Shown here: positions 9,534 through 23,389 of the stretch, piece after piece
Layout of the letters: every line of letters begins with the position of its first letter
Numbering within the stretch: the first letter of the stretch is position 1
Source of the DNA: Desulfocapsa sp.
Lineage (GTDB): Bacteria; Desulfobacterota; Desulfobulbia; Desulfobulbales; Desulfocapsaceae
Direction: 5' to 3'
Assembly: GCA_024763035.1 (NCBI GenBank)
Contig: JANTGG010000021.1
Location: 1-32,427 of the forward strand
Length of the DNA: 32,427 nt
Made by a program: the position numbers and the translations under genes
Notes under the pieces: model-generated
Databases searched by the model: none
The model's input: only the letters and a program-made list of their open reading frames with translations
Told to the model about the DNA's origin: nothing

Positions 9534-12500
9534 ATGGATTCTCTGCCCGATTCCACACAAACTGTTTTAGAAAACTGTCACTCCCTCCCCACCAGGTTTC
9601 TCATTTCCCTCAAGCCCTGGTTTTCTGAAGAAATACTCCAGCAGGCACATGCTATTCTGCGTAATCGCGAAGTCACCTTTTTTGCTTTTCGCAGACGATT
9701 TGCCGGACTTATCCTTCAAGATACTTCTGTTTTTGTGCAGATGGGCGCAAAAAAGGGAACCCTCCCATTTGTTTTCCGTGATGGCAGCTGCCGGAAATGC
9801 GGATGGCAGGTTGGCGGTGGTAACTGTAAACATGTCGCTGCTCTGGCGTTACTCTGTGTTCGTCAGCAGGAGGACGAAGTATATTCTGTCGCAGATCTTT
9901 TTGCAGACAGTGTCTGGCAGAAGATTGGCAGGTATCTCCATGGGCAGGTCGATATGCAGAGATCAATAAACGTGGGATTCCATTCCCATGGAAATGATCT
10001 GGTACTTCACGGCAGCTCTGATAATGGTCTTTCTCTTACTGTCAAAATGAGCAGCAGGGCAGCAGAGGAACTCGCCGTTTTTTTTCCGGCTGTCTGTGAG
10101 TCACTCTCCTTCGGTAAGGGGGCTTACGGAGATGAAATGCATGACTTTCTGGAAGAACTTCTCGAAAAAACATACACGCCCAACGAAAGACAACTCCAGG
10201 CAGCCGGTATGGAGAGTAAGAAATGCAGTCTTGAATCTTCTTTCTGGTATTCCCTGGTACAGCTTCTGTTTCTGCATTTCTCTGCAGAAAACATTCTGGT
10301 GGAGCAAATAGCAGATGGAAGGTACTCCATTAACTGTATTGATGATGGAAACAGTATGTTCTCACTCAGTCTGCCTCGAAACCACACCTGGGAACTACTG
10401 AATACACTGTCCCTGCCCGGGATTCCTGAACAGACTGAACAGGCAGAACAGTTTTCCCGGGTGACCTTTTCCCGTGACAGTGCTGATATCGAAGTCCATG
10501 GCTGTTGTCGGTTGGCGGATGGTACAGAATACAGGCTTGCCGATATTAGTGAAAATCTGTATGGCAACCGATATCAGCTCAATGACACCATTTTCACTCT
10601 GGGCCCTGTGCCTGCAAATGAACAGCTACGTGAAAAGCAGGTTAAGCAGCTTTCGCTGTTTGCAGCCATTGGGGAGGGGGCAACAGGCAGTGAGTTTTCC
10701 TTTGTTGTGCCGGAGAAGGATGTTCCTGATTTTATCAGGAAAAACCGGGAAGTGCTTTCCTGCGGGCGGCACCAGGTGTCTGATGATATTGTTAATCTTC
10801 AGGTTGCGTCGCTGCCGGGTGAATTGATTATTTCAGAATATCGGGAGGATGGAGATTGGTGTTATCTGGCGGGCTGGTACGGCATGGGAAGCCATAGGGT
10901 CAGTCTGGACACATTGCTGTGTGCCGCCGATGATGGAAAGAGCATTCTGCCGGGGAAAACATGGATTGATTTGAAGGATTCTCCCCTTGCATGGTTTTAT
11001 GAGTTGGGAGGAAAGCATTTTGCGGGTGAGGATGGTCAACTCAAAATGTCACGGGGGGAGTTTCTTGTTCTCTCGTCACAGATTGGCTCTGTCAGTTCAG
11101 AGGAGATGGAAATAGATGGTACCCTTGTTGAGTTTTTGCAGTCAGAAACCAGACCCGATTTTCATAAGGCGGACATTCCACAGCATTTACGTTCCTATCA
11201 ACGTCATGGCTGTAACTGGCTTTATCAGCTTCAGCACTACGGTTTAGGCGGAATTTTGGCAGACGATATGGGGCTTGGCAAAACCCATCAGGCACTCGGA
11301 TTGATCAATATGCTGACTGACGAAGAAAATCGTTTCCTTATCGTCTGTCCGGCAGCTGTTCTCTACCACTGGCCCGAAAAACAGAAAGCATTTTTCCCAA
11401 AACTCAGTCTTGATGTGTACCACGGACCCGGAAGGGATTTGCAGCATGCAGCGAAAAGCCGGATAATCGTCACAAGCTATGGCGTTATGCGGCAGGATGT
11501 GCATCTTTTTTCGGAGTACAAATTCAAACTCCTGCTTTTCGATGAAATGCATACATTGAAAAACAAAAAGACAGCGACCCATGCCGCAGTATCCGCATTG
11601 CAGGCGGAAACTGTGATCGGTCTCACCGGAACGCCCATTGAAAATAACGTGCAGGAACTGGAAACCTTACTGGAGCTTTGTCTGCCCGGAATCTTTACTG
11701 CACCATCCATTAAACAGCAGTTTACAGGTGGGGACAGCAGGGAGCAGCGGCAATACCTGCAGAAACTGGTGGCACCTTTTATCCTCCGGAGAACACGGAA
11801 ACAGGTGCTGACCGAGCTTCCTGAATGCAGTGAGGATATCAGGGTCTGTGAACTCAGTGCTGATCAGGTTACGGTGTATCGGGAAGTAGCGGAGCTGGCA
11901 CAGGAGGATGTCGATGACTATCTCGATCCCGACCAGCAGTCAAGCTATGCGACCATCCTCTCTGCAATTATTCAGCTGAAACAGATATGTAACCATCTGT
12001 CGCAATTGGAAAAGAGTGACGACTATGCATTGTATAAAAGCGGGAAATGGGATGAGTTTACCCGCCTGCTGCCGCAGTGTCTGGAAAGTGGGCACAAGGT
12101 GGTGGTTTTCAGTCAGTTTACTTCAATGCTTGATCTTATTGAGCACTGGTTAAGGGATGAAAAGATCGGCTTTGTTGGCCTCCGTGGAAGTGTTACAGCC
12201 AAAGAAAGGAGTAAGCGGATTCAGCAGTTTAATGGAGATGAAAAATGCCATGTCTGCTGTGCCAGTCTTCTGGCTGGCGGGACGGGTATTGACCTTACTG
12301 GAGCACAGGTGGTTATCCATTATGATCGCTGGTGGAATTCTGCCAGGGAAGAGCAGGCGACTGCCAGGGTGCATCGCATGGGGCAGGCACATCCGGTACA
12401 GGTGTATAAGCTGGTGACCGCCGGAACCCTGGAGGAAAAAATCCATGCAATGATTGAACGAAAACGCAGTCTCGCAGTCGATTTGATCGCAGAAGATGAC

Positions 12501-12560
12501 GGTTCCGTTTTAAAGACCCTCAGTCGGGAGGAGCTTGCCCGGTTGTTTCAGTTTGGGTGA
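9534..12560 (+). CDS. SWIM zinc-finger SNF2-family helicase
   Basis: A 1008-residue SNF2/RapA-type ATPase. Near the N-terminus, C86, C89, C98 and H100 (in GSCRKCG and GNCKHVAAL) form a SWIM-like zinc site, with CX2C in place of the usual CXC. Residues 110-530 are a divergent region. The ATPase core begins near 545: Walker A in ADDMGLGKTHQAL (about 575-587), motif II as DEMH (about 669), motif III in GLTGTPIENN. The C-terminal helicase lobe has VVFSQFTSMLDLIEHWL, LLAGGTGIDLTGAQVVIHYD and the arginine-finger motif QATARVHRMGQ. It is probably a DNA translocase or remodeller; the target is unknown. The start at 9534 lacks a clear RBS. The gene stands alone, convergent with the glycoside hydrolase, and no defence-type partner gene is adjacent. 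Confidence 0.9.
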   Translation: MDSLPDSTQTVLENCHSLPTRFLISLKPWFSEEILQQAHAILRNREVTFFAFRRRFAGLILQDTSVFVQMGAKKGTLPFVFRDGSCRKCGWQVGGGNCKHVAALALLCVRQQEDEVYSVADLFADSVWQKIGRYLHGQVDMQRSINVGFHSHGNDLVLHGSSDNGLSLTVKMSSRAAEELAVFFPAVCESLSFGKGAYGDEMHDFLEELLEKTYTPNERQLQAAGMESKKCSLESSFWYSLVQLLFLHFSAENILVEQIADGRYSINCIDDGNSMFSLSLPRNHTWELLNTLSLPGIPEQTEQAEQFSRVTFSRDSADIEVHGCCRLADGTEYRLADISENLYGNRYQLNDTIFTLGPVPANEQLREKQVKQLSLFAAIGEGATGSEFSFVVPEKDVPDFIRKNREVLSCGRHQVSDDIVNLQVASLPGELIISEYREDGDWCYLAGWYGMGSHRVSLDTLLCAADDGKSILPGKTWIDLKDSPLAWFYELGGKHFAGEDGQLKMSRGEFLVLSSQIGSVSSEEMEIDGTLVEFLQSETRPDFHKADIPQHLRSYQRHGCNWLYQLQHYGLGGILADDMGLGKTHQALGLINMLTDEENRFLIVCPAAVLYHWPEKQKAFFPKLSLDVYHGPGRDLQHAAKSRIIVTSYGVMRQDVHLFSEYKFKLLLFDEMHTLKNKKTATHAAVSALQAETVIGLTGTPIENNVQELETLLELCLPGIFTAPSIKQQFTGGDSREQRQYLQKLVAPFILRRTRKQVLTELPECSEDIRVCELSADQVTVYREVAELAQEDVDDYLDPDQQSSYATILSAIIQLKQICNHLSQLEKSDDYALYKSGKWDEFTRLLPQCLESGHKVVVFSQFTSMLDLIEHWLRDEKIGFVGLRGSVTAKERSKRIQQFNGDEKCHVCCASLLAGGTGIDLTGAQVVIHYDRWWNSAREEQATARVHRMGQAHPVQVYKLVTAGTLEEKIHAMIERKRSLAVDLIAEDDGSVLKTLSREELARLFQFG

Positions 12561-12620: not shown

Positions 12621-13994
12621 TTACTGTGAGAGTAACAGCATCAGGATTGGGGAGAGTGGGGTGGTGTTGACCGTTTTGACAGTGGACGGGTCCCAGTAGT
12701 TGCCGCTCATAACCAGGAGACAGAGCAGGTTCACCGAGTCTTCATAGTAGCCTTCGTGTCTGCTGTAGACAGCGTCGTAGACACTATTCAGCCATGATTG
12801 CTGAGATGGAACAGTCATTGCCGCAACGCCTAGTGGAGCGGCAAAGAACGTGGTAAAATAGTTGCTGCCCGCAAGGGGTGTACCGTTGAGTTTATAACCC
12901 GCTTTTATGTTATCCGGATTGCCTTCTGCTGCGGTTTCTGCCCATACCGATATCCGACCGGCCTGAGCAAGAGAGTTCGGGTCATTGTTGAGCAGTCCGT
13001 CTACGGCAAGGCGCCAGGGGACCCGTCCGGCATTGTAGTAGTAATCGCCGTCATGGGAGCCTTCAAGGAAGTCCGCGGGGGCAGGTCGGGGCGAGTGGTC
13101 TGTTGAAGAAACCGGCACAATAAAGTCGGGCAGCAAGCCGGTTCCCGGGCTGAACTGTGTTTGCATGTTGGTTATAATCGACTGGGTATTGCTGATGACT
13201 TCGGACCAGACAGGATCATTCAGCATCCGTCCGTAGGCTCGAAAATGGGCGGGCATAAAATCTGAAGATCGCGGGGTATACTGGTTATATGTGGAGCCAT
13301 TTGGATTGACCCAGTCCCCAAGCTCTGGAAGGCGGCTGTCCGGACCGATGGTTGACTGAAGAATAGCGGTCACAAGCGTCTCCGCATTACTCCGGTAGTT
13401 GATTGCTCCATTGCTGCCCCATTGCTTATCTGCAAGCAGCAGGGCATAAGCCATGTCTGCATCACCATCAAAGGCACTGTCGTTGCCACTTGTTGCATCC
13501 GGTACATCCCAATCCATCAACCGGTTGTCAATCTGGCTTGGGTGCATCCCGGCAAACTTCCACAGTCCGTCAAATATGGCTTGCGCCTGAGGTTCATGAC
13601 CGGCCATGAAAGCGGTAATGATCATCCCGTAACCTTGTCCCTCCGAAACAGTTCTGTCGCTGTCCGGCTGATCTGCACCATAGGCAATGCGGTAGAGATC
13701 GGAGCCGTCAGCAGCGGTACCGGCATGTATAAGATAGAGTGCCTTCCAGTAGTCGTACAATGTGCGAATGTCGTCATCCTGTTGTGTCTGGCTGCGATGA
13801 TTGGGAGAAATGGTATCAGGTGCGTAAGATGTGTGCCGGGGAAATGGAAACCGTACTCTTTCAGTTGCAGAGGTTGGTGTTGTGGTGGGGAGAAGAACGA
13901 TCATCAGCAGAGACAGGAGCAGGAGCGGGCGGGATATCCTCCGGTTCGTTTTTGTTTGCTGTTTTCTTGTCTGATACCTGTACCATTGGGTCAT
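12621..13994 (-). CDS. Secreted glycoside hydrolase family 8 enzyme
   Basis: A 457-residue protein. A long basic N-region and hydrophobic core (residues 19-38) form a signal peptide, with likely cleavage near TSA at 41-43. The GH8 domain fills about 75-430. The proton-donor motif SEGQGYGM is at 117-124 (catalytic E118), and the conserved acidic motif DGDADMAYALLLA is at about 176-188. GH8 contains endo-1,4-beta-glucanases, chitosanases and xylanases, including the periplasmic cellulase BcsZ of cellulose synthesis loci. No cellulose synthase genes are seen here, so the substrate is open. GAGG lies about 10 bp before ATG 13994. It is 93 bp downstream of the rluA gene on the same strand. The C-terminus ends in an unusual short hydrophobic tail, PLSPILMLLLSQ. 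Confidence 0.87.
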   Translation of the reverse strand: MTQWYRYQTRKQQTKTNRRISRPLLLLSLLMIVLLPTTTPTSATERVRFPFPRHTSYAPDTISPNHRSQTQQDDDIRTLYDYWKALYLIHAGTAADGSDLYRIAYGADQPDSDRTVSEGQGYGMIITAFMAGHEPQAQAIFDGLWKFAGMHPSQIDNRLMDWDVPDATSGNDSAFDGDADMAYALLLADKQWGSNGAINYRSNAETLVTAILQSTIGPDSRLPELGDWVNPNGSTYNQYTPRSSDFMPAHFRAYGRMLNDPVWSEVISNTQSIITNMQTQFSPGTGLLPDFIVPVSSTDHSPRPAPADFLEGSHDGDYYYNAGRVPWRLAVDGLLNNDPNSLAQAGRISVWAETAAEGNPDNIKAGYKLNGTPLAGSNYFTTFFAAPLGVAAMTVPSQQSWLNSVYDAVYSRHEGYYEDSVNLLCLLVMSGNYWDPSTVKTVNTTPLSPILMLLLSQ

Positions 13995-15457: not shown

Positions 15458-15848
15458 TGTCTTTTATGTGTATGGTGTCAGAGCAGGGGCTTTCGATTCT
15501 ATTAGAAATCGGTAGACGAATACCGGAACAACATCTGCTGTCGAATGGAAACTATAAGCCAGAATCGAAATACCATCACGTTAAAAAGGGATCTGTACCT
15601 TTTATGTGGGATTTTTTTTAAGAGGCCAAATCCATATTAACCATGAAGCAGGTTAACTGATGCATGGAGTGTTATAGAGACTGTGGTATACTGACTGGTT
15701 CAATCGTAAAAAACATACAGGCTGATATATGCTGTATATAAAAAAAATAAGCAGTGGGCAAGGGATGATGTCCTTTCCGCCGCAGGAGAATGTCGGCGGA
15801 AAGGACCTGGGAAGGCTGAAGAGCAGTTACAGGAATTTGAGGATTATT
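15458..15848. other. 391-bp gene-free stretch with dyads
   Basis: No credible gene. TTTCGATTCT (15491-15500) and AGAATCGAAA (15561-15570) form a perfect 10-bp inverted repeat 60 bp apart. TTAACC/GGTTAA (15637-15642, 15651-15656) is a smaller one. TGGTATACT at 15684-15692 resembles an extended -10 element on the plus strand, without a -35 box. The large hairpin at 15771-15805 is listed separately. This is the upstream region of the minus-strand TTG-start gene and the downstream region of the lipoprotein gene. Confidence 0.5.
15771..15805 (-). terminator. Strong 12-bp hairpin downstream of the lipoprotein gene
   Basis: TCCTTTCCGCCG (15771-15782) and CGGCGGAAAGGA (15794-15805) are perfect complements around an 11-base loop, 43 bp past the stop of the minus-strand lipoprotein gene. 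On that strand the T-run (complement of the A-run 15740-15747) comes only 23 bases after the stem, so it is not a canonical intrinsic terminator. It may protect the 3' end of the mRNA or act together with another factor. Confidence 0.5.
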
Positions 15849-17042
15849 TTATTTCTGCTCTACAAACTCGGCCATCACGTACCCTTCTGTTTTTCGGTAT
15901 TGTACTTTGTACCAGTCACCCTCCGTTGAAAGAACATCGAGTGGGGTGCCGGAAGGGATTGTTAACAGGGAATCAGCAAACATATCATCACTGGACTGCA
16001 GTTCAACACTGCGGGTGGTGATATAAGTAAGAGAAGATACAGTCGCTGGTTTTTTATCGATGTTTTCAACAGTACTGGAATCTGTCACCGTTGTTGTAGC
16101 TGAACTAACTGACTCTGGTTTCCGTGAGGTGTGTCCTTCACGAAGACCGAGGGAAATAAGCGTATCCTGATCGGCACGACCGGTCACTGCGAGCCCGTAA
16201 TCTTTTTGATAACTTTTAAGTGCTTCCCTTGTTTTTCTCCCCATGAAACCGTCAGCAGTACCGGCACTATATCCCTGCTTGTTTAGTTCCTGCTGGACGG
16301 ACTGCACTTCGGGGTCTGCCTGTCGTCTGGCAGCCGGCTTTACTGTTTCCTCCTGTACGGGAGGAGGTTCGTATGCATCGGGAGTAGAGCTGTAGGAAGG
16401 AGTCCAGTAGGCAAATGCAAGATTGACAATCTCTTCTGCACCCTGCTCATGGCTTACACGACCAAGACCAAACATTCCGCCCTGTTTAAAATCACCGGTT
16501 CCAGACCAGACAATTTCATTTCTTCGGTTGACGATAAGAATGTCAAGGGAGAGCAGGTAGGCATTTGCCGCAACAACATCTATATTTTCATTGTCCAGTT
16601 CTGAGATGACGAGGAAGTCAGTTTTTAATAAATTAAAGAGCGAGGTAATGATTTTCTCGTCAAAAACACCAACACTTTTGTAAGGTTTTGAGAGATCGTC
16701 AAAGATATCCAGCATTCTGTTTCTGTTTAACTTCTGGATGACAGTCTTTGATCCTGTGATTTTTGATTGGGGGAGTATTTGTAAAAACTTCGCGTCCAGT
16801 TTTTCATTGATGTCTTTTTTCAGCTCCAGCTGTGAGTCTGTTCCCATGGATGTGTCACCATGAACCGGCAGGATGGAAACTTTCTTGCCGGTAAACTGCT
16901 GCATGGCAACCGGCTCTCCCGGAACTACGTTTGCGTTTCTTACGCCGCATCCGCTGAAAAACATCATTATGATCACCGCCAGACAGGAAAAACCTTTCTG
17001 GTAGGAGGGGGGGGCACTTTTCCAGGAAACCTTCATCGTCAT
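15849..17042 (-). CDS. Lipoprotein with peptidoglycan-binding and SH3 domains
   Basis: A 397-residue predicted lipoprotein. The hydrophobic segment (18-30) ends in FSGC with lipidated C32; position -3 is Phe rather than the usual Leu. Residues 50-215 form a domain resembling N-terminal TolB/CsgG-like lipoprotein folds (KKVSILPV, then LLSLDILIVNRRNEIVWSG). A Pro-rich linker leads to a PG_binding_1 domain (246-299: VQSVQQELNKQGYSAGTADG and GLAVTGRADQDTL), a Ser/Thr-rich linker, and a bacterial SH3 domain (341-394, closing with GDWYKVQYRKTEGYV). It probably sits in the outer membrane and binds cell wall. GAGGAG lies 7 bp before ATG 17042. It is 52 bp downstream of the 982-residue membrane protein, with which it likely forms an operon. 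Confidence 0.8.
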   Translation of the reverse strand: MTMKVSWKSAPPSYQKGFSCLAVIIMMFFSGCGVRNANVVPGEPVAMQQFTGKKVSILPVHGDTSMGTDSQLELKKDINEKLDAKFLQILPQSKITGSKTVIQKLNRNRMLDIFDDLSKPYKSVGVFDEKIITSLFNLLKTDFLVISELDNENIDVVAANAYLLSLDILIVNRRNEIVWSGTGDFKQGGMFGLGRVSHEQGAEEIVNLAFAYWTPSYSSTPDAYEPPPVQEETVKPAARRQADPEVQSVQQELNKQGYSAGTADGFMGRKTREALKSYQKDYGLAVTGRADQDTLISLGLREGHTSRKPESVSSATTTVTDSSTVENIDKKPATVSSLTYITTRSVELQSSDDMFADSLLTIPSGTPLDVLSTEGDWYKVQYRKTEGYVMAEFVEQK

Positions 17043-17094
17043 TCTTTTTCTCCTCTTTTTTTATTCTTTAAGTAGGTATCGTATGTTTTAGTTT

Positions 17095-20043
17095 TCAGCG
17101 TTTTTTGTCACCGTGAGGCAGGTTTTTCCCGCTGTGACCCCGCAGGGATTCGTTGATTTGCTGGGGTAATTGGAATAATTGAACTGTGCAGATAGTCAGA
17201 AAACCACTGATGGCACCTATAATTGAGAAAATTCGAATCCAGCCGTTCAACTCAATAAAGCGTAACAGCCATGCGTATATTCTCTGTCCTGAATGTGTTT
17301 GAGCATGACGCCACGACAGGACAAGACAGCCAAGCAGGAGCAGCATGACCGTGGAAAACATGATAACACTGCCTGGCAGCATCCAGTGCAGGGTCCTCTC
17401 AGTTTTTCGTAGTTGCTGCTGCTTGCTGTTGATATCATCCCTCGCTTTCTGTATGCGTGTTGCCAGTTTTTCCTTCAGGGTCAGCTGCAGTTGGGCCTTA
17501 TGCTGCTGCTGGATTTCCTGCTGTTTATTGTTTTCTGTTTTCAGCAGCTGCAGGTCGTTCTGCAGTGATTCCAGTTCAGCCTGTCGACTGCCCAGTATTT
17601 CTGCTCGTTTTTGACGGAGCTTTTCTTTTAAAACATTGGCTTCAAGGATGGAGTATGCCCGGTCGAGTTTGGCGAGCAGATCGGTTCTTCCTCCTTTGAT
17701 CCACATACGTCCCAGGAGATAGAATTCATTCAGGGACTCCGGTAACGACTGTCCCGAACTGTTTACCACAGTGCTTAATGTTTGCAGAACAGCGGAGAGG
17801 TACATCTTTTCAGATTTGTTGTATTTGCCGAGTTCCTCATTCACCATCCCGTAGAAGAGCGGCAGGCTGATCCGCTCGGAGTCGGGAAGACCTGTCATGG
17901 CGGCGAAGGGATAGGTGGTGGGGATGAAGACCCGGAAGGAACCGGCCTTAAGAGCGGCAATCCTGTGAATGGCAAGCTGGGAAGCTTCTTCCAGAAACTG
18001 TCGGTTCATGGCTTCTTGAATCAGTGCCAGGGTGTCTTCTGTTGGTTGCTTTGATCGTCGTATGGTCTGTTCTGCCAGTGCGGAAAATAAAAGACTGCCA
18101 TCTTCACGCCGGTTCTGTTTCAGCAGAAAGTCTATAAATTCGATGCGTTCTGATGGGGGTAATATTTGAGATACCCTTTTCCGAAGTTGCGGGAAGACAT
18201 CATCGTGATCCAGATTAATAATTGCCATGGCGACTTTCTGCAGGTCTTCTGCGCTGTCTGCCTGTTTGACGCCTCGCCGCAGCAGGAGTGAGACTTGATC
18301 ACTTTTTCCTTTATTTCCCAGAAAATCGGCGAGAAGAAGGAGTTGCTCCACCGTTCCGTGCAGCCGTTTGAGTTTTGGGGTGACACCTTCAAGTTCAGCT
18401 GTAATGGTGTCGGCACTGGCAAGAAGAAGGACCTGATGGAGATCATCAATGGTTTTGACCTTTTTCCACGCTTTGAATAAATATTCTTCCCCCTTGTCCC
18501 GTTTGAAGTTTTGCTGGAAATAGTGTACCAGCAAAAGATAATCAGCAGTGGTTTTTGATTGCTTGACGGCGGTGGAGAGAAGTTTTTCAGCTGCCGCCGG
18601 CATGGAATGGCTTTCAAGAGTGGGGATGAGGTCCAGCAGCTGTGAAACCGAGGTGATCTGCTGCTCATGTGCGTCAAGGATGTCTGCCGCCAGACTTTTG
18701 TGATTATGTGACAGCAGAAAGCGAACGGCTCCCAGTATGGCATCCAGGCTGCTGTTGTGGTTGGTTTTTCCTGTGCTGCTCAGCTGTGAAAGTGCATTCA
18801 CTGCACGCCTTTCATCATCTTTGTGTATATACAGAGAGGCAAGGGTCACATAATATTCGGGTGATCCAACGATGACCGGTGAACTGATCGGCAGCAGCTG
18901 ATCACCCGGTGACAGATTTTCGGGGAGCAGGATGGTTTTACTCATCTTTGCCTCAAGCATGGCGATGGCTTTTGCGTAGTCTGAGAGCCCCAGCAGTTGA
19001 ACCGTATAATCAAGTCGTTCTTCAACTTTGATGATTTTTTCATTCTGACCGGCAATAAGAGATGTGGCATACATCATCATTAAAACAACCAGACCGATAA
19101 TGAATTGAATTTTATATTGATAAATAAATCCTTTTTGATGGATACATTTAATAAAGATATACACTGCAGCGTAGGGCATCAGGAATGGCACGACAAGGAT
19201 TCCGAGCAGGTTCAACGTGTCTGTACCAAAGACAACCCCGAATAAGACGGCACTGCTCAAAACAAGAACCGGAAAGAAGCCAATTATAATTTTTTTATAG
19301 CGGGTGAACAGTTCTTTTTCCCTGTAAAATAAAAAGAGAAACAGGTTGAATACGAGTATCGGAAGACCCAGGTAGAGTGTGAAGACAAGCATCTTTTGCA
19401 TCTCAGGGTCGAAAAGAGCGCCGTAGGCGACCAATGCACCGCCAAATCCGGGGGCATAAAACGTTAATGCCGAACCGAATAATGAGAGAAGTATAAGAAC
19501 TTCTGGGAAAAAACAGATTGAAGCAATAACTTCAAATATTCTGATCTTTTTCAGGAGAGATATGTTTTTAGATAATTTTTTGTCGAGATCCTGAAGTGTT
19601 GTTGCCAGTTCCTGCGGGAGTGGTATCTCATCTGTTTCGGTGTCAGCAGTTTCTTCAGCAGCGTTGACTGTATGTTCAATCTTTGCAGTGAGAGCGGTGA
19701 TTTCATTGTCGAGTATTTTTCCTTCAACAGCGACTATCTCATCAAGTTTTTTCTGTTGAGTGAGAAAGGCCAAACGGTTGAGCTGATATTCCTGAATAAT
19801 GGTGTTTGATCTGTTTTTTTCTTCGTCCACATATTCAGCAGCCACAGAAGCAACTGAACCCGGAAGCCTGGCGGGTTGCTGAATGTGTGGTTTTTGAGAG
19901 TTTGCGGTGTCTGTTTGTTGGGCGTTGTCAGCAGTCGACAGGGACTCAGCAGTTGCTTCTCCAGTCCCTAAAGGGGAGGAGAGTGCTGCAAGAAAAAGCA
20001 GGAAAATATATAAAAGAGGAATCAAAACTTTCAGTCTACGCAT
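17095..20043 (-). CDS. Large multi-pass membrane protein with helical repeats
   Basis: A 982-residue protein of no family I recognise. An N-terminal signal or anchor helix (7-26) is followed by a polar, Thr/Gln/Glu-rich segment with coiled-coil potential (40-165). About five membrane helices follow (roughly 170-197, 217-240, 251-272, 277-299, 312-331). A long soluble part (340-820) shows TPR-like alpha-helical repeats of about 36 residues, visible as recurring patterns such as TTADYLLLVHYFQQN and TVEQLLLLADFLGNKGK. A Gln/Lys-rich coiled coil spans about 825-895, and two more membrane helices lie near 900-955. This layout suggests a scaffold linking membrane and periplasm or cytoplasm. The start ATG 20043 has AAGG 7 bp upstream. 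It is followed by the PG-binding lipoprotein. Confidence 0.75.
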   Translation of the reverse strand: MRRLKVLIPLLYIFLLFLAALSSPLGTGEATAESLSTADNAQQTDTANSQKPHIQQPARLPGSVASVAAEYVDEEKNRSNTIIQEYQLNRLAFLTQQKKLDEIVAVEGKILDNEITALTAKIEHTVNAAEETADTETDEIPLPQELATTLQDLDKKLSKNISLLKKIRIFEVIASICFFPEVLILLSLFGSALTFYAPGFGGALVAYGALFDPEMQKMLVFTLYLGLPILVFNLFLFLFYREKELFTRYKKIIIGFFPVLVLSSAVLFGVVFGTDTLNLLGILVVPFLMPYAAVYIFIKCIHQKGFIYQYKIQFIIGLVVLMMMYATSLIAGQNEKIIKVEERLDYTVQLLGLSDYAKAIAMLEAKMSKTILLPENLSPGDQLLPISSPVIVGSPEYYVTLASLYIHKDDERRAVNALSQLSSTGKTNHNSSLDAILGAVRFLLSHNHKSLAADILDAHEQQITSVSQLLDLIPTLESHSMPAAAEKLLSTAVKQSKTTADYLLLVHYFQQNFKRDKGEEYLFKAWKKVKTIDDLHQVLLLASADTITAELEGVTPKLKRLHGTVEQLLLLADFLGNKGKSDQVSLLLRRGVKQADSAEDLQKVAMAIINLDHDDVFPQLRKRVSQILPPSERIEFIDFLLKQNRREDGSLLFSALAEQTIRRSKQPTEDTLALIQEAMNRQFLEEASQLAIHRIAALKAGSFRVFIPTTYPFAAMTGLPDSERISLPLFYGMVNEELGKYNKSEKMYLSAVLQTLSTVVNSSGQSLPESLNEFYLLGRMWIKGGRTDLLAKLDRAYSILEANVLKEKLRQKRAEILGSRQAELESLQNDLQLLKTENNKQQEIQQQHKAQLQLTLKEKLATRIQKARDDINSKQQQLRKTERTLHWMLPGSVIMFSTVMLLLLGCLVLSWRHAQTHSGQRIYAWLLRFIELNGWIRIFSIIGAISGFLTICTVQLFQLPQQINESLRGHSGKNLPHGDKKR

Positions 20044-20312: not shown

Positions 20313-21968
20313 ATGAAGCGATTGTGGCGTATTCCGGATTTTCTTGATTTAGAATATTTTTTTCTCCAGGACAGAGAGCTGGCAGAAGAAGAGGGTGAAC
20401 GTGTGCTGCGTGATCGTGACCGGAGTTTTTTTCTGGAACATATCGGTGCCGATGCCGATATCTCTGAGTCCGACCATAAATGGCTTATTCATCGATGGCT
20501 GGAACAGCGTCGCAGCAGTGAAAATACGGCCCAGGGCGGTCATGCCCTTCTGCCCGGACGTATGTGGTATGAACTGTACGGACTTTTCTGGTCTGTTTTT
20601 TCGTTTATTGCTGTGTTTGCCGGTGGTGGACTTGCCTATTCCTTTCTTGCATATTCCGGCAGTCAACCTGTCAATGTGTCCGCTTTCCTTCTGTTTTTTG
20701 TGGTGTTTCAGCTGCTTTTTCTGATTGTTCTTTTTTTTGCATGTGTGTATCGGAAATTTTCCGGACTCGATCTGCGTTCTTCCCTCCTGCTCGCACTTGT
20801 CAGTAAAGGACTGAACCGGCTTCTTTTTCGTGTGCGCAAATATGGTCTGGACAGCATGAGCGGCAGCCGCAGGGCGCAGTTTACTGCTGCTCTTTCCGCA
20901 ATACATATGAGGGGAAAGGGGTATGGAACGCTTTTTTTCTGGCCGCTCTTTCTTCTCTTTCAGCTTTTTGGAATCGCCTTTAACCTGGGGGTATTGGGAG
21001 CACTTCTGGTAAAAGTCGCAAGTGCTGATCTTGCCTTTGGCTGGCAGTCCACCATTCAGCTCTCCTCCGGGTTTGTTGCTTCTGTTGTGCAGGGGCTTGC
21101 TCTGCCATGGGCATGGTTTTTGGGGGATGGCAGTTATCCATCGCTAAGTCAGGTTGAGGGAAGCCGTATGGTTTTAAAAGATGGATTTTATCATCTTGCG
21201 AGTGCTGATCTGGTTTCCTGGTGGCCCTTTCTCTGTCTGGCAATCTGCTGTTACTGCCTCCTGCCCCGTATCCTCCTGTTTCTGTTCGGCAGCAGGATGC
21301 GCAGTCGTTCCCTTGCTGCTGTTTCTTTTACCCGGGCAGATCATAAACAGCTCCTGCACCGACTGTTAACCCCACGGCTGGAAACCAGAGTTGTTACAGA
21401 AGTGGTGGAAACACCTCCTTTGGGATCTCCTGCCGTACCGGATGAGGAAGCAAAGTCTGAATCTGAAACTGAGACTGAACCTGAAAATGAGCCTGAAAAA
21501 GAACCGGACACAAAAAACAGCGAACCGGATGCAGTGGATGCCGTTAATGGCAGGGGCATGGTGCTCGTTCCCGACGAACTGTATGATGCGTATGATGGTG
21601 AACTGTTCAGTCGTTTATGTCGGCAGGCTTTTGGCTATGCAGTTGCCGGGGCAATTTCTCTTGATGATGAATATTGCGATGCAGAAAAAGTGTTTCGTCG
21701 TTTGCAGGAGACAGATGTTTCTGCCGCTGCCCTGCTGATTCTGCAGGAGGCCTGGCAGCCGCCTATTCAGGAGATGCTTGGTTTCCTGCGTGATCTTCGC
21801 AAAAATTGCGGTGAAGAGCAGCATATCATCATCGCCCTCATAGGCAAGCCCGCACCGGATACACTGTTTACACCCGTGTCTGGTCTGGATCTTCAGATAT
21901 GGAAACAGAAAACAGCCGCACTTGCTGATCCCTGTCTACAGGTAAGCCCGTTACTGGAGGAATTGTGA
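20313..21968 (+). CDS. DUF2868-type membrane protein
   Basis: A 551-residue protein with four likely membrane helices (about 92-114, 123-145, 207-230, 303-326). A very acidic linker of alternating Glu and Ser/Thr/Pro (377-409) precedes a C-terminal soluble domain (415-551). The architecture and its position just before a DUF3482-type GTPase match the DUF2868/DUF3482 gene pair I know from proteobacteria; the function is not established. The C-terminal region (LDLQIWKQKTAAL and nearby) may sense or bind the partner GTPase, but that is inference. ATG 20313 has only a weak AGG 13 bp upstream. The 3' end overlaps the GTPase start as GTGA, indicating coupled translation. The 269-bp gap upstream is shared with the divergent 982-residue protein gene; no convincing promoter was found in it. 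Confidence 0.75.
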   Translation: MKRLWRIPDFLDLEYFFLQDRELAEEEGERVLRDRDRSFFLEHIGADADISESDHKWLIHRWLEQRRSSENTAQGGHALLPGRMWYELYGLFWSVFSFIAVFAGGGLAYSFLAYSGSQPVNVSAFLLFFVVFQLLFLIVLFFACVYRKFSGLDLRSSLLLALVSKGLNRLLFRVRKYGLDSMSGSRRAQFTAALSAIHMRGKGYGTLFFWPLFLLFQLFGIAFNLGVLGALLVKVASADLAFGWQSTIQLSSGFVASVVQGLALPWAWFLGDGSYPSLSQVEGSRMVLKDGFYHLASADLVSWWPFLCLAICCYCLLPRILLFLFGSRMRSRSLAAVSFTRADHKQLLHRLLTPRLETRVVTEVVETPPLGSPAVPDEEAKSESETETEPENEPEKEPDTKNSEPDAVDAVNGRGMVLVPDELYDAYDGELFSRLCRQAFGYAVAGAISLDDEYCDAEKVFRRLQETDVSAAALLILQEAWQPPIQEMLGFLRDLRKNCGEEQHIIIALIGKPAPDTLFTPVSGLDLQIWKQKTAALADPCLQVSPLLEEL

Positions 21969-23389
21969 ATCGTTCTGTGCCGGAATTCGCCGTCGTCGGG
22001 CATCCCAATGAGGGGAAATCCTCTGTGTTGTCAACACTTGCGGAAGACGATTCTGTCCGCATCAGTCCCATGCCCGGTGAAACCCGTGAATGTCAGACGT
22101 TCCCGGTGACCATTGATGGTACAGAGATCATTCGTTTTACCGATACTCCCGGTTTTCAAAATCCGAGAAAAACCCTGCAGTGGATGCAGGAGTATCACGG
22201 CAGAGATGAAGAGCTTATCCGTGATTTCATTATTGCCCATAAACATGATCCTGCTTTTCATGATGATTGTCATTTGCTGCAGCCTATTTTGCGGGGAGCC
22301 GGGATTATCTTCGTGGTGGATGGTTCAAGACCCCTGCGCAATACCGATAAAGCGGAAATGGAGATCCTGCGTCTCACCGGCTGCCCGCGGATGGCCATTA
22401 TCAACTGTAAGGATGAAGAGACGGCATGGCTGGCAAAATGGCAGACGGAATTCCGGAAGCATTTCAATTCCATCCGGGTTTTTAATTCCTGCCGGGCAAC
22501 CTATGTGGAACGTATTGCACTGCTCGAAAGTCTTAAAGGAATAGATCAGGAATTGCAGCCGGTGCTCGACCGTGTTGTGACAGCATTTCAGGATGACTGG
22601 CAGCAGCGGAATCAACAGGTTTCGGAGATGCTCCTGGAACTGCTGGAACAGGGGCTTGGGTATTCCCGGTCGGTGCTGTTGAAATCCGCTGCAGATGAAG
22701 AGCAGCTCAGGGAAAAACTGCATGCCGGGTATGTGAAAAGTATCAGCAGTCGTGAAAAGAAATGCCGGGAGCGGATGCGCAATCTGTATAAACATAATAT
22801 TTTTAACTGCGAGCTGCCGCCCCATTCCATTCTAAAAGAAGATCTTTTCTCTGACAGGAGCTGGGAGTTTCTTGGGCTTAACCGTTCGCAGCTGGTCATG
22901 GCAGGCGGCTTGAGCGGGGCTGCGATCGGGGCGGGGATTGATGTCGCTGCAGCGGGGTTGAGCTTTGGTATTTTCTCGGCAGTGGGCGGTCTTGTGGGGG
23001 CAGCCGGCACTGCTTTAAAGGGCAGGGAGTTTCTCAGCGGGACAAAATTGCTGGGCATGCGTCTTGATGAACAGCGTCTCACGGTGGGGCCGGTAAAGAA
23101 CATTCAGCTTTTGTATATTCTTCTTGATCGGCAGTTACTCTTTTACAGCCATATAATCAACTGGGCACACGGACGCCGGGATTACGATAGGTTGCCCGGG
23201 AATACTGAAAACCTGCCGGTCAAAGTCGGTTTTACAGCTGAGTGGCAGGGAAACAAACGAAAGGTCTGTGAGCACTTTTTCAACAGTCTGCAGCATCGAG
23301 AAGGATATGATTTGCCCGGAGCCCGGACTGCCATGGAGCAGCTGATCACAGAGGAATTGCAGGAAATCTCCACCGGAGGTGGATGTTGA
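21965..23389 (+). CDS. DUF3482-type GTPase
   Basis: A 474-residue TRAFAC-class GTPase. The P-loop is GHPNEGKSS (12-20), T40 in MPGETREC fits switch I, and DTPG (60-63) is G3. The G4 position reads NCKD (147-150) instead of NKxD, so base specificity may be altered. Residues 195-300 are helical and charged. Residues about 305-352 form a Gly/Ala-rich amphipathic segment (GGLSGAAIGAGIDVAAAGL) that could insert into a membrane, as in dynamin-like or Era-like membrane GTPases. The C-terminal domain is DUF3482-like. The start is GTG at 21965, overlapping the previous stop by 4 bp and preceded by GGAGG at 21956-21960. It is the second gene of the membrane protein-GTPase-recQ operon. Its role is unknown. 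Confidence 0.82.
   Translation: MNRSVPEFAVVGHPNEGKSSVLSTLAEDDSVRISPMPGETRECQTFPVTIDGTEIIRFTDTPGFQNPRKTLQWMQEYHGRDEELIRDFIIAHKHDPAFHDDCHLLQPILRGAGIIFVVDGSRPLRNTDKAEMEILRLTGCPRMAIINCKDEETAWLAKWQTEFRKHFNSIRVFNSCRATYVERIALLESLKGIDQELQPVLDRVVTAFQDDWQQRNQQVSEMLLELLEQGLGYSRSVLLKSAADEEQLREKLHAGYVKSISSREKKCRERMRNLYKHNIFNCELPPHSILKEDLFSDRSWEFLGLNRSQLVMAGGLSGAAIGAGIDVAAAGLSFGIFSAVGGLVGAAGTALKGREFLSGTKLLGMRLDEQRLTVGPVKNIQLLYILLDRQLLFYSHIINWAHGRRDYDRLPGNTENLPVKVGFTAEWQGNKRKVCEHFFNSLQHREGYDLPGARTAMEQLITEELQEISTGGGC

Follow-up and report, generated by a model that had tools for sequence, protein, structure and literature searches.

Two genes and their products

The window analysed here is a stretch of 32,427 nucleotides from Desulfocapsa sp. 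(contig JANTGG010000021.1, positions 1 to 32,427, of GenBank assembly GCA_024763035.1). Its reverse strand carries a pair of adjacent genes, which encode a predicted inner-membrane protein of 982 residues with a tetratricopeptide repeat (TPR)-like solenoid and coiled coils (17095..20043) and, after a gap of 52 bp, a predicted lipoprotein of 397 residues (15849..17042). Both open reading frames (ORFs), their sizes and the gap are as described in an earlier, sequence-only reading of this DNA.

Near its N-terminus the smaller protein has a lipobox-like motif, FFSGC (residues 28–32), read by eye with no predictor behind it, from which we infer lipid anchoring; phenylalanine at position -3 of a lipobox is unusual. 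The motif is followed by a head domain (residues 33–225; 16368..16946, reverse strand like all features of the pair) and by the two domains that had been proposed for the rest of the protein, both of which exceed their Pfam cut-offs: PG_binding_1 at residues 243–295 (16158..16316; PF01471, E 5.5e-17, 62.1 bits against a cut-off of 23) and the bacterial SH3 domain SH3_3 at residues 361–394 (15861..15962; PF08239, E 5.7e-07). An AGGAG Shine-Dalgarno-like site (17050..17054), read from the sequence, lies 7 nt upstream of the lipoprotein ATG, and about 42 bp past the stop codon there is a perfect inverted repeat with 13-nt arms and an 11-nt loop (15770..15806), a possible operon end without a T run. 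These features make it plausible that the two genes form one operon; promoter and terminator scans of the locus gave results at chance level.

The hydropathy profile of the large protein peaks at residues ~4–22, 172–200, 219–237, 252–270, 280–298, 314–332, 891–909 and 936–959, in line with the roughly eight membrane helices, including the N-terminal one, that had been noticed from the sequence. Among the eight homologs scanned, the common pattern is an N-terminal helix, one pair of membrane segments before the solenoid (TM1 and TM2) and another after it (TM3 and TM4), with lysine- and arginine-rich loops consistently placed between TM1 and TM2 and between TM3 and TM4. Since these basic loops lie inside each membrane pair, the positive-inside rule, which is well established, implies that the solenoid and the coiled coils face the periplasm and that both ends of the protein are probably anchored in the inner membrane. 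Hydropathy and alignment place the membrane block of the window copy at residues 167–333 (19045..19545). Compared with the orthologs, it contains roughly two additional helices between the aligned TM1 and TM2, which, being even in number, leave the sides of the membrane unchanged; a further hydrophobic stretch at residues 167–200 is unassigned in this topology. Before the block, residues 65–178 (19510..19851) form a helical and coiled-coil stretch (AlphaFold2 helices 65–133 and 144–178) for which the same charge rule predicts a periplasmic location, and after the solenoid, residues 806–967 (17143..17628) comprise the C-terminal coiled coil, TM3 (891–909), the basic loop and TM4 (936–959).

An AlphaFold2 model of the large protein built from eight sequences (pLDDT 68, pTM 0.40) predicts helical hairpins over residues ~345–805 (17629..19011), with block-mean pLDDT mostly 75–90, and these hairpins stack as antiparallel helix pairs into a superhelix, the arrangement of TPR-type proteins. 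Continuous helices are predicted at residues 787–916 (130 residues) and 65–133, which bears out the coiled coil of the sequence-only reading. A Foldseek search of the PDB with the solenoid part returned 46 chains at E ≤ 0.001, TPR-type solenoids in general, and VIA-align likewise found solenoids of the TPR, HAT and PPR types (best Z 10.1, rmsd 9.8 over 383 residues); because matches of such size between long repeats can reflect a mere common arrangement, we take from them the fold class only. Pfam TPR models are matched by five of the eight aligned homologs (best E 5.2e-07), although by none of the window copy taken alone, which reaches no Pfam, NCBIfam or PADLOC family at its cut-off. According to model, homologs and structure matches, the large protein thus probably carries a TPR-like solenoid at residues ~345–805, as the repeats seen earlier had suggested, and the hidden Markov model searches assign it to no characterised family, which supports the earlier reading of an unrecognised system.

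Occurrence of the pair and apparent exchange of its lipoprotein

Full-length orthologs of the large protein are present in 7 of the 93 genomes of the window's family, here numbered G000 (the window's own), G016 (of the same genus), G032, G046, G056, G477 and G479. Matches in G499, G500, G502 and G030 (E 5.9e-06 to 5.6e-04) cover short TPR or coil stretches and were dropped from this count, as was G040 (3.1e-04), where the match is an 803-aa TPR protein. Across 395 genomes of the phylum the sole further real homolog is a shorter and distant protein of 687 residues in another family (G117, L048:4056-6119; E 3.3e-24); nine genomes with matches at 8.9e-06 to 8.9e-04 were discarded, the only one inspected (G452) containing a different TPR protein. 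Apart from G117 itself, the 79 genomes around it yielded one weak match (G096, 4.0e-04). A scan for two peptide patterns, and hence an incomplete one, over contigs of 84,980 species detected five loci, all from Desulfobulbaceae, Desulfocapsa or metagenome-assembled genomes of Deltaproteobacteria. In the genomes searched, the pair was thus seen in a few sulfur-cycling sediment bacteria.

In all seven genomes with a full-length ortholog, the gene of the large protein is followed directly downstream by one for a lipoprotein that has PG_binding_1 and ends in an SH3-like part. The five lipoproteins scanned with Pfam, those of the window and of four other genomes, all contain PG_binding_1 and an SH3_3 domain above or just below the cut-off (26.4 bits against 27 in G032); the partners in G046 and G479 were judged by alignment. 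The two genes overlap by 1–11 nt in five of the seven pairs (-4 in G032, G056 and G046, -1 in G016, -11 in G477), while the spacing is +52 in the window and +16 in G479 (-17 with a longer start). This adjacency extends over four kinds of neighbourhood: G046, G056, G479 and G477 share at least upstream methyltransferase-like genes, and G032, G016 and G000 each differ. The pair is therefore kept together elsewhere, and neither of the results that the sequence-only reading had named as contrary to it, a characterised family for the large protein or genes that are rarely neighbours, was found.

Among the seven orthologs of the large protein, conservation is highest at both ends of the solenoid and in TM3–TM4, as docking surfaces would show: invariant positions number 18 of 75 at residues 346–420, 25 of 85 at 721–805 and 15 of 83 at 885–967, compared with 7 of 160 at 561–720. 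The G016 ortholog (L013:6143-8887) alone ends in a long, acidic C-terminal tail, which contains near-repeats of the sequence LTLSEEDLE.

The head of the window lipoprotein had been read as TolB/CsgG-like, and this claim was not confirmed. The head alone has no Pfam match at E ≤ 10 and no meaningful match to PDB sequences. In hhalign, its alignment with 14 LpoB-type members runs through the whole domain in order over 120 columns, but with a probability of 0.4; the score was reached by 44 of 300 shuffles, the column count by 0 of 300. Against 11 CsgG members the probability was 0.2; for comparison, single sequences of genuine members, queried from one of the LpoB and CsgG families against the other, gave 3–97. 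Neither family is a significant profile match. The AlphaFold2 model of the lipoprotein, built from its sequence alone, was unusable (pLDDT 36). Chance matches aside, the only match to the head among 93 genomes of the family, 193 of the order and 395 of the phylum is the window head itself, and a plasmid search with it gave no match; weak matches in G575, G492, G444, G448 and G352 fall in other genes, or in frames without a lipoprotein, and were dismissed as chance.

A different kind of head, about 150 residues long, is common to the other six partner lipoproteins. Against two alignments of this head the window head scored an hhalign probability of 0.1 in each, whereas a distant true relative from G041, used as a single sequence and among the two rows least like the alignment's first (18–22% identity), reached 97.5. 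One orthologous lipoprotein family including the window copy was therefore rejected; by these profile comparisons the window lipoprotein is not an ortholog of the other six partners, and a TolB/CsgG-like domain is no feature of the system. The profile of the ortholog-type head detects 14 of the 93 family genomes and nothing in G000, an assembly that is 92% complete, so that a partner of the old type could be missing from it. In a midpoint-rooted tree of the joined PG_binding_1 and SH3 domains, based on a short alignment of eight rows, the window tail clusters with that of a PAN-PG_binding_1-SH3 protein encoded elsewhere in the same genome (support 95/92) and apart from the six; the same grouping recurs with PG_binding_1 alone (16 rows; 90/93, not starred). 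The window tail is 50% identical to that PAN protein and equally 50% to the G477 tail. The PAN protein (L049:7961-9061, C17), apparently secreted, consists of two PAN domains, PG_binding_1 and SH3_3.

These observations would be most simply explained if the partner gave way to a replacement, or was rebuilt with a tail of local origin, and the large protein retained a wall-binding neighbour. Since the head was exchanged and the type of tail retained, the conserved unit appears to be a TPR membrane protein plus a wall-gripping lipoprotein, and because the replacement again has PG_binding_1 and SH3, wall binding at this place seems to be selected.

The ortholog-type head also occurs apart from the pair. 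It is joined to PG_binding_1, without SH3, in G493, G484, G485, G494 and a second copy in G032, all without the large protein in their immediate flanks, and the lipoprotein is thus not dependent on the large protein. In G041 (L071:123-2094) and G052 (L072:168-2100), a lipoprotein of this composition follows a CsgG-like lipoprotein, with ORFs that touch or overlap; the CsgG-likeness lies below the Pfam cut-off (E 0.037 and 0.097). This arrangement is a second kind of two-gene cassette with the same wall clip. Weak matches to the head were seen in G490, where the gene is cut by the contig end, and in G031, which has the head only. A likeness of the ortholog head to BamC is not claimed here; Pfam and NCBIfam searches gave no match to such a family.

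Around the pair, a GH8 glycosidase gene, remotely BcsZ-like, comes after the lipoprotein gene in the same orientation (12621-13994, reverse) and is not found near the other copies. Two divergent, overlapping genes on the forward strand (20313-23389) encode a DUF2868 protein and a GTPase domain with DUF3482, the latter weakly LeoA/LeoBC-like (E ~4e-06). A link of the pair to the GH8 or the DUF2868/DUF3482 genes was rejected, as these neighbours are not conserved at the other loci. Farther away, a SNF2-type helicase of 1008 aa (9534-12560, forward) matches DpdE and ZorD models, with the match limited to its helicase half (residues ~440–1007). Neither protein of the pair matches PADLOC profiles, of Zorya or other defence systems, at E ≤ 0.01, and a defence role was rejected on this basis.

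A proposed scaffold tethered to the cell wall and its rivals

We favour, with a confidence that is about evenly balanced, the interpretation that the pair forms a TPR scaffold in the inner membrane, which the neighbouring lipoprotein tethers to peptidoglycan. In the large protein, membrane helices would hold the periplasmic solenoid at each end, and coiled coils would flank it. After export, the lipoprotein would be held by a lipid anchor, probably in the outer membrane, would grip peptidoglycan via PG_binding_1 and probably SH3 as well, and might dock on the solenoid. The pair may thereby fix the TPR scaffold to the wall, and perhaps to the outer membrane, at chosen places, where the solenoid or the exchangeable head of the lipoprotein could gather envelope client proteins. 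The earlier proposal of a pair reaching from the inner membrane to the peptidoglycan or outer membrane stands in so far as the predicted domains and topology fit it, while the TolB/CsgG-like domain is unconfirmed and absent from the system's other partners. Several observations weigh against the tethered scaffold. The model of the large protein is of limited confidence (pLDDT 68, pTM 0.40), and its membrane part lies mostly below 60. The pair is patchy, being absent from 86 of the 93 family genomes, so that it serves no core wall function. The ortholog-type head with PG_binding_1 occurs without the large protein in other genomes, and the G117 homolog lacks a lipoprotein at the usual place: about 400 bp downstream there is an acyl-CoA-dehydrogenase-like gene (labelled by eye), and the contig ends about 525 bp away on the other side.

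A special case of the tethered scaffold, which we regard as possible without expecting it, is that the pair regulates wall enzymes, the solenoid being an adaptor for peptidoglycan synthases, hydrolases or a protease and the lipoprotein the wall-sensing half, like LbcA, NlpI, LpoA and CpoB. TPR solenoids and wall lipoproteins are the usual parts of such adaptors (PMC7267771, PMC8764530, PMC7391070), and LbcA is among the Foldseek matches (7rqf_A, E 1.2e-04), but as one of 46, mostly unrelated TPR proteins, and with a TM-score (query) of 0.18; in the loci read, where flanking genes were identified mostly by eye, nothing beside the pair was recognisable as a wall enzyme gene. That the pair is instead a scaffold for secretion or surface-polysaccharide export, with the lipoprotein as wall passage or outer-membrane anchor, we consider unlikely. 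The position of the ortholog-type lipoprotein directly after the weakly CsgG-like one in G041 and G052 speaks for export, as does the example of TagV, in which an SH3b lipoprotein of the outer membrane supports a secretion machine (PMC7614798), yet genes for an export pore, ATPase or glycosyltransferase were not recognised beside the pair in these loci and the GH8 gene is not retained.

Two further explanations were weighed. The genes could be co-transcribed neighbours with separate jobs, the smaller encoding a general wall lipoprotein, since its family stands alone elsewhere, the window copy is not orthologous to the other partners and the G117 homolog has no such neighbour. Adjacency in seven of seven genomes over four neighbourhood types, mostly with overlapping genes, and the retention of PG_binding_1 and SH3 through the replacement make this rather improbable in our view. 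Least probable is a cytoplasmic solenoid serving a membrane-bound signalling or assembly platform: the topology depends on charge rules, and the window copy has a poorly modelled membrane block that is unlike that of its orthologs, but the basic loops between TM1 and TM2 and between TM3 and TM4 recur in the scanned homologs and the N-terminus resembles a signal sequence or an N-in helix.

Extending the tethered scaffold, we tentatively propose an undescribed trans-envelope platform, nearly limited to one family, in which a membrane-anchored periplasmic TPR arm is clipped to the wall by a lipoprotein and an exchange of the head changes the client that is held. The window would be an instance of such an exchange, and the cassettes of G041 and G052 would suggest that one wall clip serves several machines. 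What the locus offers is an unnamed pair from Desulfobacterota whose wall-binding half was swapped with its wall-binding tail kept, which points to the PG_binding_1 and SH3 tail as the essential part. A literature search, judged by titles and abstract openings, yielded no paper describing this pair.

Similar parts in known envelope systems

Most of the known connectors that join the inner membrane, the wall and the outer membrane come from Enterobacteria and Pseudomonas. Tol-Pal with CpoB of Escherichia coli has a similar set of parts, described (PMC7391070) as an inner-membrane protein with a long periplasmic helix, a periplasmic TPR/coiled-coil protein and a peptidoglycan-binding outer-membrane lipoprotein. 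In the window pair, by contrast, it is the membrane protein itself that carries the TPR part. The lipoprotein has PG_binding_1 and SH3 instead of an OmpA-like domain, for which it gave no Pfam match; TolA is not among the Pfam families listed for the eight homologs of the large protein, and the loci read showed no recognisable TolQ/R-like gene adjacent to the pair.

LpoA and LpoB are wall-associated lipoproteins with TPR-like or TolB-like domains that activate peptidoglycan synthases. LpoP, too, is a wall-associated lipoprotein that activates a peptidoglycan synthase (PMC7267771). In such activators the TPR part and the lipid anchor are on one protein, whereas the window pair has them on two, and the likeness of its head to LpoB is not significant. 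LbcA, the partner of CtpA in Pseudomonas aeruginosa, is a TPR spiral working at the cell wall (PMC8764530). LbcA is itself the outer-membrane lipoprotein, and in adaptors of the LbcA and NlpI type the TPR protein is a lipoprotein; the TPR protein of the window, in contrast, has N- and C-terminal membrane helices and, by eye, no lipobox. In the loci read, the flanks of the pair showed no recognisable gene for a CTP protease. The type VI secretion accessory protein TagV is an outer-membrane lipoprotein whose SH3b domain is thought to bind peptidoglycan (PMC7614798). It resembles the window lipoprotein in being an SH3 lipoprotein, but the latter combines SH3 with PG_binding_1 and a separate head and stands beside a TPR membrane protein. 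Tol-Pal with CpoB, the Lpo activators, LbcA and TagV all use similar parts in other arrangements, and the pair is filed under none of them.

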